IMG/VR virus record: IMGVR_UViG_3300023276_001246
Coordinates: 1-21,589 of that record
Origin: a virus
Direction: 5' to 3' (one strand)
Length of the DNA stretch: 21,589 nucleotides
Part shown: positions 2,008 to 20,201 of the stretch, piece after piece
How the letters are laid out: every line of letters starts with the position of its first letter
How positions within the stretch are numbered: position 1 is the first letter of the stretch
Notes under the pieces: generated by a model
Told to the model about the DNA's origin: nothing
What the model saw: only the letters and a program-made list of their open reading frames with translations
Databases searched by the model: none
Translations under genes and position numbers: made by a program

Positions 2008-4533
2008 TTAATATCCGACCACGTTTCGTCCAATAACCATTTTTGTTTCTTTTCCCCCACGCTGATACATTAAGAATTCCCGTTGGAAAGCTTGCGTTAT
2101 CATATAATCAAAAGTATCAGAGCAATTATGAACTAAAATATTATTCGCAAAAAATTCAGGCTGATCTTTAACCGTTAAATCATAAACATCTGCTCTCTTT
2201 TCTATATTTTGCAGCGCACTTTCTTGAACAATTCTTGGTTTTACTCCATTTATTTGCCTCAAAAGTTGCACCGCAAGAAACACAGATTCTCGATTCATTC
2301 CATTTACCCAATTTTCTGTCTCGCCTTGCGCCATATCTATTCTTGCACTTTGCTGAACAGAACTTTGTTTCCACTTTAGCTGTTTGAGTAAATTTCGAAC
2401 TACATTCAAGACATTCAATAACCCTTTCTTTCCCGAATAGAGATTCTTTAGCGTGTTTCTTGTGCCACTTTCTTCCTTCTTCTGATTTATGCCATTCAAT
2501 TGCTTTAGGTCGTGCGCATTCTTCAAGACACCGCTTTTTCCTTTGTTTTTCTTCTTCTGAAAGATTTTTGTAATGATCTGATAAATGCTTGCGCCCATCA
2601 ACACAAATAAGATTGGCAATATTATTATTGCTGATACTACCATCTTTATGATGGATATGATGTTTTTCGGGAATCGTGTCTTTTTCGCATTCCCAAATAT
2701 ATCTATGAAGATATTTTTTATCACCTCGAACCCACCCCCTGAAATACTTTTCATCATATCGATGAAACTTAAATCCATTATAGATAATCGTTTCTTTTTC
2801 CATACTCCCAATTTAGGGGTAAAGATACAAAAAGTATTCGAACCTATCAGAGTAGAGGCACTTTTAAAACCTTGATTATTAGTGAATATTTTATGGTCTG
2901 GTGTGCAAGTTATTTCGTTATTCCCTATTTTATATGTTCTAACTATTGCGTTTTTTCGCGTTAATCCAGATTTAAAAACGGGTTTATATCCTTTTCTTGT
3001 AAGAACATAATCGCCAAGTTTTACATCTTCAATGTTTTTATCTCCTAGAATAGTTTTAATCTTAGTTCCGGCAATAAAACAATGACCATATTGTTCATAG
3101 CTTATGCCAGTACGAATATCTTTGATTTTCTTTTTTGATTTCGTACCATCGGAATCTTCTTTTAAAAATTGAAAATCTGCTATTGAATTATGACACTTTT
3201 CCGAAATACGAATTTTTATGCTATCAGTTTCAAAGCAATCGTTTATCCAATTACCACGCATAGCAACGGAAGGATTACTTCTTCCAACTCTTAATGATGG
3301 GTAATAATGTTCAATATACTTACAAAACAGGGTGAAGAAGTTTTGCCCCTTTTCCAATTTTGTATCTGCTTTCTGTGAAGTAGCATCACCATAAATAAAT
3401 AAACCAGTTTTATGATTCGGGTATCGCATCATGAATTCCTCCGCAAGCATACGAACCGTATTCTTCGGGTGTGCCAAACAAAGTTCATCTATCTGAGTTA
3501 TGCAATTACCTTCAACTTGATATAAAGTTGCTGTAATGTACGGATTTACGTTTTCATCTAGTGATATATGGAGCGGTAAGTATTCATTATACTGGCATTC
3601 GGTAACGTGTATATCTTGATTAAATGCTTTGTAGAATTCTGACCCTGCCTCCATAATTTTGGGGTTCTGTTGCTGTAAGGCTTCAAACTTTACCGGATTG
3701 ATTTGCTTTGCCTCCATCGCTGATTCGTAACTGTGCATTTCTTCCCAAAGAACCTCGCCTATTTCTCGCGGGTCATTAGGGTTTGAGTTATCAATCTTAA
3801 TACGTGGAAAAGTAACTATCTCCCAATCTTTGGCGTGGCTGCTTTTCGAAGCTTCAATTATTTTTCCGGCAATATCTTCAACATTCCACCGTGTTAATGT
3901 TAAAAGAACCTGACTATTATTATTTAATCGAGTACTTAATTCGGTTGTGTACCATTCCCAAACTTTCTCACGATATGTTTGCGAGCCTGCTTCTTCTGCT
4001 CCTTTTATCGGGTCATCGATAAGCGCGATATCAACCGGGTTTCCTGTGATACCGCCACCAACGCCAACAGAAATAAAAGAGCCGCTTTTATTTACAACTT
4101 CGAATTCATCCGCAGTTTTTACGAAATCACTTGTTTTTGAATTTGATAATGTTGTTTCCGGAAACACTTCATTATATGAAGGCTCAGTCATAATTCTTTT
4201 TATCTGCCTGTTAAATTTACTGGCAAAAGTTGAATTATAGGCACAAAGGGCAATTCTAAGATTCGGGTTTAATCCTAACATGAAAGCAGGTAAACGTCTG
4301 GAAGTCAGCTCTGATTTACCATGCTGTGGCGGCATAAACACCATCATTCTTTTTATTTCGCCCCGAGCGAATTTGTTTAGCTTATCACATAAAATTTGAT
4401 GATGCCAGTTGGTAAGATAATCTTCTTTAGTATATTTCGTGAAAGCAAGTATGTCGGATTTAGCTCTATATCTTAACTCATCCTTTTTTAGTTTATATTT
4501 TGCTTCAAGTAATTCTAATTTATCAGCGTTCAA
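2008..4533 (-). CDS. terL: Terminase large subunit (TerL), intein-containing precursor
   Basis: The ATPase-nuclease that packages phage DNA into proheads. The precursor has 841 residues; removing the intein leaves a 522-residue TerL, a normal size. ATPase motifs: Walker A PPQHGKSE (68-75), Walker B DIALIDDP (168-175), coupling motif LLTLTRW (210-216). Nuclease aspartates: D326 (HISLDEN), D383 (IYGDATS), and the third in CSDTFDY after the intein. The intein (residues 485-803) splits the conserved YGH/CSDTFDY motif, so TerL cannot be an active nuclease until it is spliced out. The start codon is TTG at 4533: an in-frame TAA lies just upstream, and the first internal Met (residue 63) is too close to Walker A. 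It overlaps the small-subunit gene by 11 nt, which suggests translational coupling. Confidence 0.93.
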   Translation of the reverse strand: MNADKLELLEAKYKLKKDELRYRAKSDILAFTKYTKEDYLTNWHHQILCDKLNKFARGEIKRMMVFMPPQHGKSELTSRRLPAFMLGLNPNLRIALCAYNSTFASKFNRQIKRIMTEPSYNEVFPETTLSNSKTSDFVKTADEFEVVNKSGSFISVGVGGGITGNPVDIALIDDPIKGAEEAGSQTYREKVWEWYTTELSTRLNNNSQVLLTLTRWNVEDIAGKIIEASKSSHAKDWEIVTFPRIKIDNSNPNDPREIGEVLWEEMHSYESAMEAKQINPVKFEALQQQNPKIMEAGSEFYKAFNQDIHVTECQYNEYLPLHISLDENVNPYITATLYQVEGNCITQIDELCLAHPKNTVRMLAEEFMMRYPNHKTGLFIYGDATSQKADTKLEKGQNFFTLFCKYIEHYYPSLRVGRSNPSVAMRGNWINDCFETDSIKIRISEKCHNSIADFQFLKEDSDGTKSKKKIKDIRTGISYEQYGHCFIAGTKIKTILGDKNIEDVKLGDYVLTRKGYKPVFKSGLTRKNAIVRTYKIGNNEITCTPDHKIFTNNQGFKSASTLIGSNTFCIFTPKLGVWKKKRLSIMDLSFIDMMKSISGGGFEVIKNIFIDIFGNAKKTRFPKNIISIIKMVVSAIIILPILFVLMGASIYQIITKIFQKKKNKGKSGVLKNAHDLKQLNGINQKKEESGTRNTLKNLYSGKKGLLNVLNVVRNLLKQLKWKQSSVQQSARIDMAQGETENWVNGMNRESVFLAVQLLRQINGVKPRIVQESALQNIEKRADVYDLTVKDQPEFFANNILVHNCSDTFDYMITQAFQREFLMYQRGGKETKMVIGRNVVGY
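2180..2803 (-). CDS. HNH homing endonuclease, nested out of frame inside the terL intein
   Basis: 207 residues on the same strand as terL but in the -1 frame. The HNH core is clear: RYIWE, then HHIHHKDG and NNNIANL at about residues 48-66. Two zinc-finger-like units follow: CLECSSKF...FCSAKCKNRYG and CVSCGATF...NCSRKCAAKY. It begins at ATG 2803, with TAA nine bases upstream in its own frame, so it is not a readthrough from the intein frame. A GGGAG lies directly before the ATG, unusually close for a ribosome site. Its TGA falls inside intein block F, so it fills almost exactly the slot between blocks B and F. It probably cuts intein-free terL alleles to drive homing. Expression would need internal initiation or -1 frameshifting. 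Confidence 0.85.
   Translation of the reverse strand: MEKETIIYNGFKFHRYDEKYFRGWVRGDKKYLHRYIWECEKDTIPEKHHIHHKDGSISNNNIANLICVDGRKHLSDHYKNLSEEEKQRKKRCLEECARPKAIEWHKSEEGRKWHKKHAKESLFGKERVIECLECSSKFTQTAKVETKFCSAKCKNRYGARRDRKLGKWNESRICVSCGATFEANKWSKTKNCSRKCAAKYRKESRCL
2820..2827 (-). promoter_or_regulatory. Promoter-like box ahead of the nested HNH gene
   Basis: The minus strand reads TATCTTTAC, 16 nt upstream of the HNH ATG and inside intein coding sequence. The identical 8-mer stands before the starts at 1966 and 5113, and TATCTTTG stands before 9007 and 1668. No -33 TTG is found at 19-20 nt, so this may be chance. Confidence 0.3.
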
Positions 4534-14348: not shown

Positions 14349-14918
14349 TTAAAATAAAGTCGGCATATCTTCAAACTGTTTTACTCTACTTTGTACCATC
14401 TTAAAATATTCAGGGTTTAATTCGCACCCGATAAAGTTTCTACCTTCTTTTATTGCAGCTATTGCAGTACTGCCGCTGCCCATAAAAGGGTCGAATATTG
14501 TATCACCTTCCTTTGTATTCTCTAATACCAACTTTCGCATCAATCCTATTGGTTTTTGGCTTGGGTGGTTATAAAATGTATCTCTTGCGTAACTGGCTGC
14601 AACCGTGCTATTAATTAAGTAATAGTTATAAACTTTATATGCCTTACCTCCATTCCGTTCATAAATTACTTCGTACATCGAACCAACACCGCACTTTTTA
14701 TCCCAAATATGCTTTGCTGTAAAATCCAATGGGAATTCAACTTTTGCGCTCCAAAATATTATTTGTCTGCATTCATAGTTTTTTACCCAATCCAACAACC
14801 CATCATAATAATGATATTCTTCTGGCATATAATCTGGGTAAGGTGGGTCTGTAATTATTGCATCAAATTTTATATTTGGCAATACGTTTTCAAACCTATC
14901 ATTAAATATTTGTATCAT
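14349..14918 (-). CDS. Orphan DNA methyltransferase (N6-adenine/N4-cytosine type)
   Basis: 189 residues. The catalytic motif IV ITDPPYPDY (DPPY at 24-27) comes first and the S-adenosylmethionine motif I FDPFMGSGST (142-151) comes last, followed by NFIGCELNPEYF. This order is that of the beta group (N6_N4_Mtase). The short middle leaves little room for a target-recognition domain. No restriction enzyme is nearby, so it probably modifies phage DNA to evade host restriction or alters regulation. Upstream of the ATG a purine-rich AGGGAGGGA is an unusually strong Shine-Dalgarno-like sequence for this genome. Confidence 0.88.
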   Translation of the reverse strand: MIQIFNDRFENVLPNIKFDAIITDPPYPDYMPEEYHYYDGLLDWVKNYECRQIIFWSAKVEFPLDFTAKHIWDKKCGVGSMYEVIYERNGGKAYKVYNYYLINSTVAASYARDTFYNHPSQKPIGLMRKLVLENTKEGDTIFDPFMGSGSTAIAAIKEGRNFIGCELNPEYFKMVQSRVKQFEDMPTLF

Positions 14919-18855: not shown

Positions 18856-19272
18856 TTAAAAAGCCCCGCCCGCTTTTGTTTTTTCAAAACAATTGGGGTT
18901 TAAAAATACATGTGAAATTTTATCATACATTCCCATCTCTTTTAGTACAAATTTGTTATTTTTTTCATTTACGCTAAAAAAATAAGTCCCGTAATTCTTC
19001 AACTGATAACACTTTTTAAAATAATAACATAAATCATCATTAATCATTGATAATGAGTGTTTGTATTTGTCGTTAAAATAAAAACTATCTGCTTCATTTT
19101 CTTTAAAAATACTGCACTTTCGTGCTTTGAAATTGAATGTTAACATTATACCATCATTGTAATTAATTTTAATCAAATTAGCTGCAATGTTACTGATAGC
19201 TATCGTTTTTGCATTTATAACAATGCGAATTAGGCTATTATTACTTAGTGGGTTTTTTTTGTCTATTTCCAT
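18856..19272 (-). CDS. Hypothetical protein coupled to the integrase (138 aa)
   Basis: The start codon overlaps the integrase stop by one base (TAATG), so it is translationally coupled. MEIDKKNPLSNNSLIRIVINAKTIAISN, then NLIKINYNDGIMLTFNFKARKCSIFKEN, then a helix CYYFKKCYQLKNYGTYFFSVNEKNNKFVLKEMGMYDKIS. Beta-rich first half, then helix and strands. No known domain. Its position suggests a recombination-directionality or regulatory partner of the integrase, but it is larger than typical excisionases. Confidence 0.65.
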   Translation of the reverse strand: MEIDKKNPLSNNSLIRIVINAKTIAISNIAANLIKINYNDGIMLTFNFKARKCSIFKENEADSFYFNDKYKHSLSMINDDLCYYFKKCYQLKNYGTYFFSVNEKNNKFVLKEMGMYDKISHVFLNPNCFEKTKAGGAF

Positions 19273-20201
19273 TATCCAAATACTTTAGCTATTGCTTCAC
19301 TCTTGTCACTATCTGATGGATGTACGTATACATTTAAAGTTGTCGACACATCTGAGTGTCCAAGCAGCTTGCTTACCGTTGCGATATCAACACCAGATGT
19401 TATACATAGCGTGGCAAATGTATGTCTTAATGCATGAAATTTTAACATAGGCAATTCAAGTTCTTTAAAAAGCTTTTTGTGATAATTTCGATATGTGCGG
19501 GGTTCAATACATTTGTCGCTATTCGATAAAATATAATGATTTTTACTCACTATTTTATTACTAATCATCGGCTTTGCAATATTAATAATTGCTGAGCTTA
19601 GCGGTATTTCCCTGTGTGAACTCTTTGTTTTTGCAGATCCTTCTATTAGTTTGGTTTCCTTATTTCCTGTTATCAAATTAGCACTGTAAATACGCTGAGC
19701 AGTTTTATAGATATTGACTGTTTCCGAATTCACATCAATATCGCCCCATTTTAAAGCGGACATTTCACCTATTCTAATTCCAGTATTTAGGCAGAATAAT
19801 ATTCCAAAATTTTTAAATGAGAAATTTTCTATTAAATAGCTTTTCAACCTTTCTAATTCCCCTTGCGAAAGCCTTTCTATTTTTTTATATCCATCATTGT
19901 AAAATCTTGTCGGCCATTCTATTTCACTATTAAATTTTTTAAACATATTATTCTTATCGCCGTATTTTGTTATTTCTTTTATGGTAACAACCATATCTTT
20001 GATGTAGTTACGGCTTAATTTTTGTGTTTTTTTGTTTAAAATAAAATTCTGAACATCTTCTGTTAATATTTCGTTTTCATAATTCCCGAAAATTGGTAAA
20101 ATATGATTATACAAAATCTGATTATAAGTTGAAATACTGGATTCCTTTATGAAACTTTTTTTATACTCAATCCATTTTATGGCTACATAACTAAAATTCA
20201 T
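19272..20201 (-). CDS. int: Tyrosine recombinase (phage-type integrase)
   Basis: 309 residues. The N-terminal core-binding domain (SSISTYNQILYNHILPIFGNYENEILTEDVQNFI, about 21-54) is of the SAM-like type. Catalytic residues: R143 (LNTGIRIGEMSALKW), a lysine in SAKTKSSHREIPL (K191 or K193), H256 and R259 (FHALRHTFAT), H282 (LLGHSD) and the nucleophile Y292 (TTLNVYVH). All are intact. It lacks the extra helix block that marks integron integrases (IntI), and it has the same direction as the cassette genes. It should integrate and excise the element. It lies 13 nt after the upstream gene, with which it forms a three-gene unit. Confidence 0.93.
   Translation of the reverse strand: MNFSYVAIKWIEYKKSFIKESSISTYNQILYNHILPIFGNYENEILTEDVQNFILNKKTQKLSRNYIKDMVVTIKEITKYGDKNNMFKKFNSEIEWPTRFYNDGYKKIERLSQGELERLKSYLIENFSFKNFGILFCLNTGIRIGEMSALKWGDIDVNSETVNIYKTAQRIYSANLITGNKETKLIEGSAKTKSSHREIPLSSAIINIAKPMISNKIVSKNHYILSNSDKCIEPRTYRNYHKKLFKELELPMLKFHALRHTFATLCITSGVDIATVSKLLGHSDVSTTLNVYVHPSDSDKSEAIAKVFG

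Follow-up and report, generated by a model that had tools for sequence, protein, structure and literature searches.

The window analysed here is the whole 21,589-nucleotide stretch of virus record IMGVR_UViG_3300023276_001246. Its minus strand carries a large terminase gene (terL) that contains an intein, and a complete ORF for an HNH protein lies within the intein in a different reading frame (Table 1). The initial annotation had placed the HNH ORF wholly inside the terL-intein ORF, with the intein frame remaining open across it, and both ORFs were found as stated. The two frames also specify recognisable products, as had been claimed: Pfam Intein_splicing matches residues 492-803 of the terL-intein ORF, spanning the gap (E 5e-11), and HNH_3 matches the nested ORF (E 2e-10). 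The TAA codon closely preceding the HNH ATG and the termination of the HNH gene inside block F are both present. The residue limits proposed for the intein hold with a minor correction, the intein proper being the 319-residue segment of Table 1.

Elsewhere in the window, also on the minus strand, are ORFs resembling a tyrosine-recombinase integrase (19272-20201) and a DNA methylase (14349-14918), which suggest that the phage is temperate.

Table 1. Features of the interrupted terL gene and the nested HNH gene (window coordinates).
Feature	Position	Strand	Evidence or remark
terL ORF with intein	2008-4533	minus	841 aa, TTG start as listed; PHROG phrog_38 (E 2e-64), Pfam Terminase_6N
TerL N-extein, ending ...GISYEQYGH	3082-4533	minus	alignable with intein-less TerL L001-L005
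Intein CFIAG...LVHN, 319 aa (ORF residues 485-803)	2125-3081	minus	Pfam; empty site in L004
N-terminal splicing half (blocks A and B; C1 nucleophile, TxxH)	2812-3081	minus	pLDDT 92-98
HNH-frame TAA stop, nine bases 5' of the HNH ATG	2813-2815	minus	read from sequence
Putative HNH homing endonuclease ORF, 207 aa; intein frame = HNH frame +1	2180-2803	minus	HNH_3; model pLDDT 95.7
HNH catalytic motif HHIHHKDG	2639-2662	minus	H49, H51, H52 and D54 invariant in 58 nested homologues
First zinc-finger-like unit	2345-2413	minus	C131, C134, C149 and C153 invariant
Second zinc-finger-like unit	2216-2284	minus	C174, C177, C192 and C196 at least 90% conserved
C-terminal splicing half (blocks F and G; last residue N, then C+1)	2125-2208	minus	pLDDT 87-98
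HNH stop TGA, from block F TAT-GAT (Y-D; V-Y-D codons) read out of frame	2180-2182	minus	
TerL C-extein CSDTFDYM... (nuclease motif) and stop	2008-2124	minus	

The intein and its insertion site

The interrupting segment possesses splicing blocks A, B, F and G and a Hint fold, and an intein-free homologue with an intact site exists: locus L004 reads GISYEKYGH-CSDSADY across the junction, and L001-L003 align without an insert. Among 57 nested inteins C1, T60 and H63 are invariant and N319 is present in at least 90%, while a comparison of 51 nested ORFs shows C1, the threonine and histidine of block B and the terminal asparagine to be invariant, with C+1 retained in at least 90%. AlphaFold modelled the Hint fold with a pLDDT of about 97 in both halves (three rows from the phage collection were left out of the modelling input). 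The top fold match was the gp41-1 intein (E 2e-5), and the nearest solved inteins, by profile and fold, include gp41-1 and NrdJ-1. The conserved residues and the modelled fold lead us to predict that TerL is spliced.

In textbook inteins the endonuclease is a domain of the same chain, located between blocks B and F, so that the amount of nuclease is tied to the amount of host protein. Our element has in common with canonical inteins the TerL host, the four splicing blocks and a homing endonuclease between B and F; a same-frame endonuclease is found neither in the window nor in any of the 70 nested loci described below. The host gene was recognised as terL through Terminase_3 in 34 and Terminase_6N in 28 of the 51 nested ORFs. 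Insertion is at the C-terminal nuclease motif, DH^C...N^C(S)DAxRY, at times shifted by a few residues; in locus L137 the intein is apparently in the terminase ATPase domain. For mycobacteriophages, TerL inteins have been described in the ATPase domain alone (Kelley et al. 2016, PMC5050341); they differ from the present one both in site and in the frame of the endonuclease.

The terL ORF of Vibrio phage 1.238.A (L030) contains two matches to the N-terminal type of splicing domain (476-715 and 2840-2983), after which come an HNH of divergent sequence and a separate Hint C-part; two inteins are possibly present.

The HNH protein and its translation

The AlphaFold model of the HNH protein is of high confidence throughout, and the conservation of H49, H51, H52, D54 and N60 together with the zinc cysteines indicates an HNH motif and a putative DNA-binding module. 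I-HmuI (PDB 1u3e) was the only solved structure returned by the HNH profile search (E 0.0013), with a sequence match limited to profile positions 27-101, outside the C-terminal zinc-finger units; it was also the top fold match, though a weak one (E 0.07). The two proteins share the HNH core and differ in that a group I intron harbours the I-HmuI gene. Since HNH genes of this type are often found in such introns, the gene might be housed by a self-splicing RNA intron within the intein, the open intein frame being incidental. This we regard as very improbable: an RNA intron would have no use for the stop-free frame that crosses HNH in 70 loci, and no Rfam intron family was detected at gathering thresholds in the window and 14 related loci, where hits in the region were at chance level.

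A start codon lies near the expected beginning of HNH in 63 of 65 nested genes (ATG in 53), and the nearest in-frame stop upstream is at a median distance of 15 nt. Shine-Dalgarno pairing at the nested starts exceeds that at random positions (p 1e-6), yet is below that of the split genes discussed later. The window HNH has no Shine-Dalgarno-like site, which is also true for most genes of this phage. The prevalence of own starts close behind stops and the enrichment of Shine-Dalgarno-like sites favour the proposal of the initial annotation that the endonuclease is translated independently, and its dose would in that case be uncoupled from that of the terminase. Overlapping frames apparently achieve this in a gene essential to tailed phages, and the layout is common. 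The first residues of HNH, MEKETIIY, are identical in the window (2780-2803) and in L016 (3276-3299), where overall identity is only about 37%.

Alternatively, HNH could be made as an intein fusion through programmed ribosomal frameshifting, and would then be an ordinary endonuclease domain; the window does possess a potentially slippery A-run (GGAAAAAG) right after the HNH ATG. The run is, however, missing from many relatives, while own start codons are almost universal. The upstream stop is moreover so near the HNH start that any shift would be confined to a tiny interval in each locus, and the fusion would stop at the end of HNH, lacking the C-terminal Hint half and TerL-C. Frameshifting is in our opinion improbable, and initiation at the HNH start codon is the reading followed here.

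Recurrence of the layout and selection on the two frames

A profile built from nested HNHs yielded 80 viral loci (out of roughly 525 HNH-positive stretches) and 22 genomic loci. The profile was needed, as a single-sequence HNH search of viral contigs recovered two loci; a blastn search of phage records with the whole terL ORF gave short ATPase matches only. Among 119 loci of the HNH family, 70, including the window, have an out-of-frame HNH nested between both splicing halves in one ORF; these represent 65 distinct HNH sequences. Sixteen others are split, each splicing half having an ORF of its own and HNH lying between them; no intein was detected at 24 loci, and nine are partial. Additional nested cases occur in phage-like regions of Halobacterium plasmid pGSL19_54.9 (L134) and Streptomyces plasmid pS1D4-14.2 (L137). 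The intein frame is HNH+1 in 70/70 nested loci, none having the +2 relation, and HNH is in frame with the intein in 0/119. The out-of-frame arrangement postulated for the window thus recurs in 69 further loci, and no homologue with HNH continuous with the intein frame, the finding that would have spoken against it, was encountered. With some 70 related loci sharing one layout, the nested out-of-frame HNH is, as judged by sequence comparison, an established and widespread mobile-element design in viruses of bacteria and archaea, neither an accident nor a one-off.

The number of stop codons expected by chance was calculated from recodings of the HNH protein that kept the codon usage of the sequence concerned. 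For the window about six intein-frame stops are expected, and only about 0.1% of recodings have none; the sequence itself contains 0 in the intein frame and 28 in the third frame. Taken together, the 65 distinct nested genes (13,150 codons) have 0 stops versus 308 expected in frame +1, and 1402 versus 1353 in frame +2. The nested class is defined by its open frame, hence its zero is partly by construction; the weight of the stop evidence is in how large a share of loci is open, in the lack of any in-frame or +2 case, and in the control classes. The latter carry about as many +1 stops as expected (split, 87 versus 78.5; free, 71 versus 71.8).

These counts bear on the suggestion that the +1 frame is open through a mere coincidence of codon usage or through an error of assembly. 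The +1 frame is indeed easier to open than the +2 frame: in the seven loci first examined the expected stops are about 2-6 and 9-29, respectively. Against this stand the chance of about 0.001 for the window and the expected stop numbers in free and split homologues. The suggestion is refuted by recurrence of the layout in about 65 distinct sequences, which makes coincidence negligible; their common +1 relation also rules out frame-correcting sequencing indels as the explanation. The earlier claim that the intein frame is open beyond chance is thereby borne out. The probability of a +2 frame without stops is at most 0.001 for every member, so that +1 is the only frame which mutation could plausibly clear. 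The constant +1 relation may be explained in this way or by common descent, the two being compatible.

Selection on amino acid sequence is evident in the HNH frame. In nested pairs whose HNHs are 50% or more identical, differences at codon positions 1, 2 and 3 number 2671, 2288 and 3927; third positions are the most variable in nested, split and free genes alike. Their share of the differences is 0.44 in nested genes versus 0.48 and 0.52 in split and free ones, a modest reduction that leaves room for weak constraint from the intein frame. Over HNH, no amino acid conservation belonging to the intein frame was detected in divergent pairs, mean identity being 0.205 for nested, 0.215 for split and 0.183 for free genes. 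The AlphaFold intein model is mostly of low confidence in the overlap (pLDDT 40-55), except for one helix (139-184). The initial annotation had spoken of about 200 dual-coding codons and proposed a test for codon-level constraint in both frames; the freedom from stops and the constraint on HNH stand, and the intein frame exhibits no detectable constraint of its own. With no conservation beyond that imposed by HNH and a low-confidence model, "dual-coding" amounts to a gene plus a stop-free linker, and the intein frame over HNH is best described as a tolerated linker. Two intein-frame residues considered as conserved glycines, G197 and G206, are opposite HNH W-H codons, where a shift of the reading by one base turns TGG CAY into GGC, and were for this reason left out as conservation.

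A strongly hydrophobic stretch (IISIIKMVVSAIIILPILFVLMG) occurs in the linker frame opposite the codons of the HNH motif (2530-2667, minus strand), and might influence precursor solubility or membrane contact. PHROG 35162, of unknown function, matches the linker frame at 2125-2724 (minus strand) and in 24 other nested inteins, so that the family probably derives from linker-frame sequence together with the C-terminal splicing half. Gene callers can overlook HNH or, as in this family, choose the wrong frame, and terL is mis-sized in phages with nested inteins. The nested loci provide about 65 natural replicates of a long overlap in which one frame is functional and the other seemingly only stop-free, and lend themselves to a clean study of the maintenance of overlapping genes.

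Mobility, split relatives and known systems

Loci L032 and L033, from two metagenomes, share an element that is 94% identical in its 5' part, 99% in HNH and 100% in its 3' part, compared with 70% for the upstream and 60% for the downstream flank. The drop in identity occurs near the element edges, and the 100 bases immediately before the element include a stretch of 92%, a profile expected of the remnant of a homing event with a short co-conversion tract. A similar mismatch is seen in L097 and L120 (HNH 68%, TerL 30%). The occurrence of near-identical intein and HNH in two divergent terL genes implies that the element moves as one unit, and L032/L033 point to mobility into homologous sites.

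These observations also bear on whether HNH might be a terminase-helping packaging nuclease of the HK97 type and not a homing enzyme. Members of the family do occur as free genes beside terL (L017, L019-L021, L025 and L027), and a part in packaging is ascribed to HNH proteins adjoining the terminase (Kala et al. 2014, as cited in PMC12613952; discussed also in PMC10448857). Close TerL relatives (L001-L004), on the other hand, have no HNH at the site, and terL genes that are otherwise divergent exchange the element as one unit. I-HmuI, the closest relative of solved structure, is a homing endonuclease, and a gene lodged in an intein at its target site has the arrangement of a homing element. 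A packaging role is thus unlikely, if somewhat less so than frameshifting.

We are rather confident that the locus is a mobile mini-intein in the TerL nuclease motif, with the homing endonuclease encoded apart from it by a gene nested out of frame. Ribosomes translating terL would read through TerL-N, Hint-N, a largely unstructured linker of about 200 residues, Hint-C and TerL-C, and protein splicing, as predicted by the conserved residues and fold, would restore TerL. Other ribosomes would begin at the internal ATG and produce free HNH, which may cut intein-less terL alleles of co-infecting phages; repair would copy intein and nested gene together, in keeping with the unit transfer seen in sequence comparison. 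Selection on TerL would purge stops from the intein frame, while amino acid selection would act on the HNH frame. That such elements form a widespread and old intein class of bacterial and archaeal viruses, in which splicing protein and endonuclease are separate products of overlapping frames, stops are purged, movement is as a unit and breakage of the frame converts the element to a split form, appears to us somewhat more probable than the opposite.

In the 16 split loci the order is TerL-N plus Int-N, a free HNH, and Int-C plus TerL-C; they are found in phages and proviruses. Several are from Bacillota, namely Lactobacillus phage CL2, Brochothrix phage BL3, a Fructilactobacillus plasmid and Clostridia contigs. 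A quick, unrooted tree, used only for the clustering of states, places most of them in a single clade that also contains many free HNHs. In 15 of the 16 the frame of the C-half is still HNH+1, which fits descent from nested forms, although the loci are related and the tree is unrooted. The nested layout suggests a route between cis-splicing and split inteins.

Dassa and colleagues are said to have described, in 2009, fractured genes in which split inteins of the gp41-1 and NrdJ-1 group have a free-standing endonuclease between their halves. Our loci share with these the gp41-1/NrdJ-1-type halves and the separate endonuclease, and the 16 split loci are of the same anatomy, with the intein halves on separate polypeptides. 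Unlike in fractured genes, the window intein frame runs through the endonuclease gene as one open frame, so that splicing would be in cis. The endonuclease here is of the HNH_3 type, and that of the fractured genes presumably belongs to a different family.

The closest published relative is ShiLan, in which an HNH lies within a mycobacteriophage DNA methylase gene, with a sporadic distribution suggesting homing, and is thought to stay unspliced (Arsenault et al. 2025, PMC11855218). Both systems have a zinc-finger HNH out of frame in a stop-free phage host gene; ShiLan has another host gene and no splicing domain, whereas the HNH of the window is enclosed by a complete Hint domain that could excise the linker. 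Overlapping-frame inteins may in part already have been described in a 2025 preprint on non-canonical inteins of actinobacteriophages (bioRxiv 10.1101/2025.01.02.630785), to judge from its title and its citation in PMC11855218; most of the present loci have no known actinobacteriophage origin.

A putative split-intein TerL with a free HNH between the parts is seen in L024, L135, L136, L046, L052, L057, L078, L082 and L083, and further in L100, L109, L111, L115, L117 and L118. The C-part of split TerL appears in the records as a small unknown gene or is unannotated, and the HNH of Brochothrix phage BL3 is apparently truncated.
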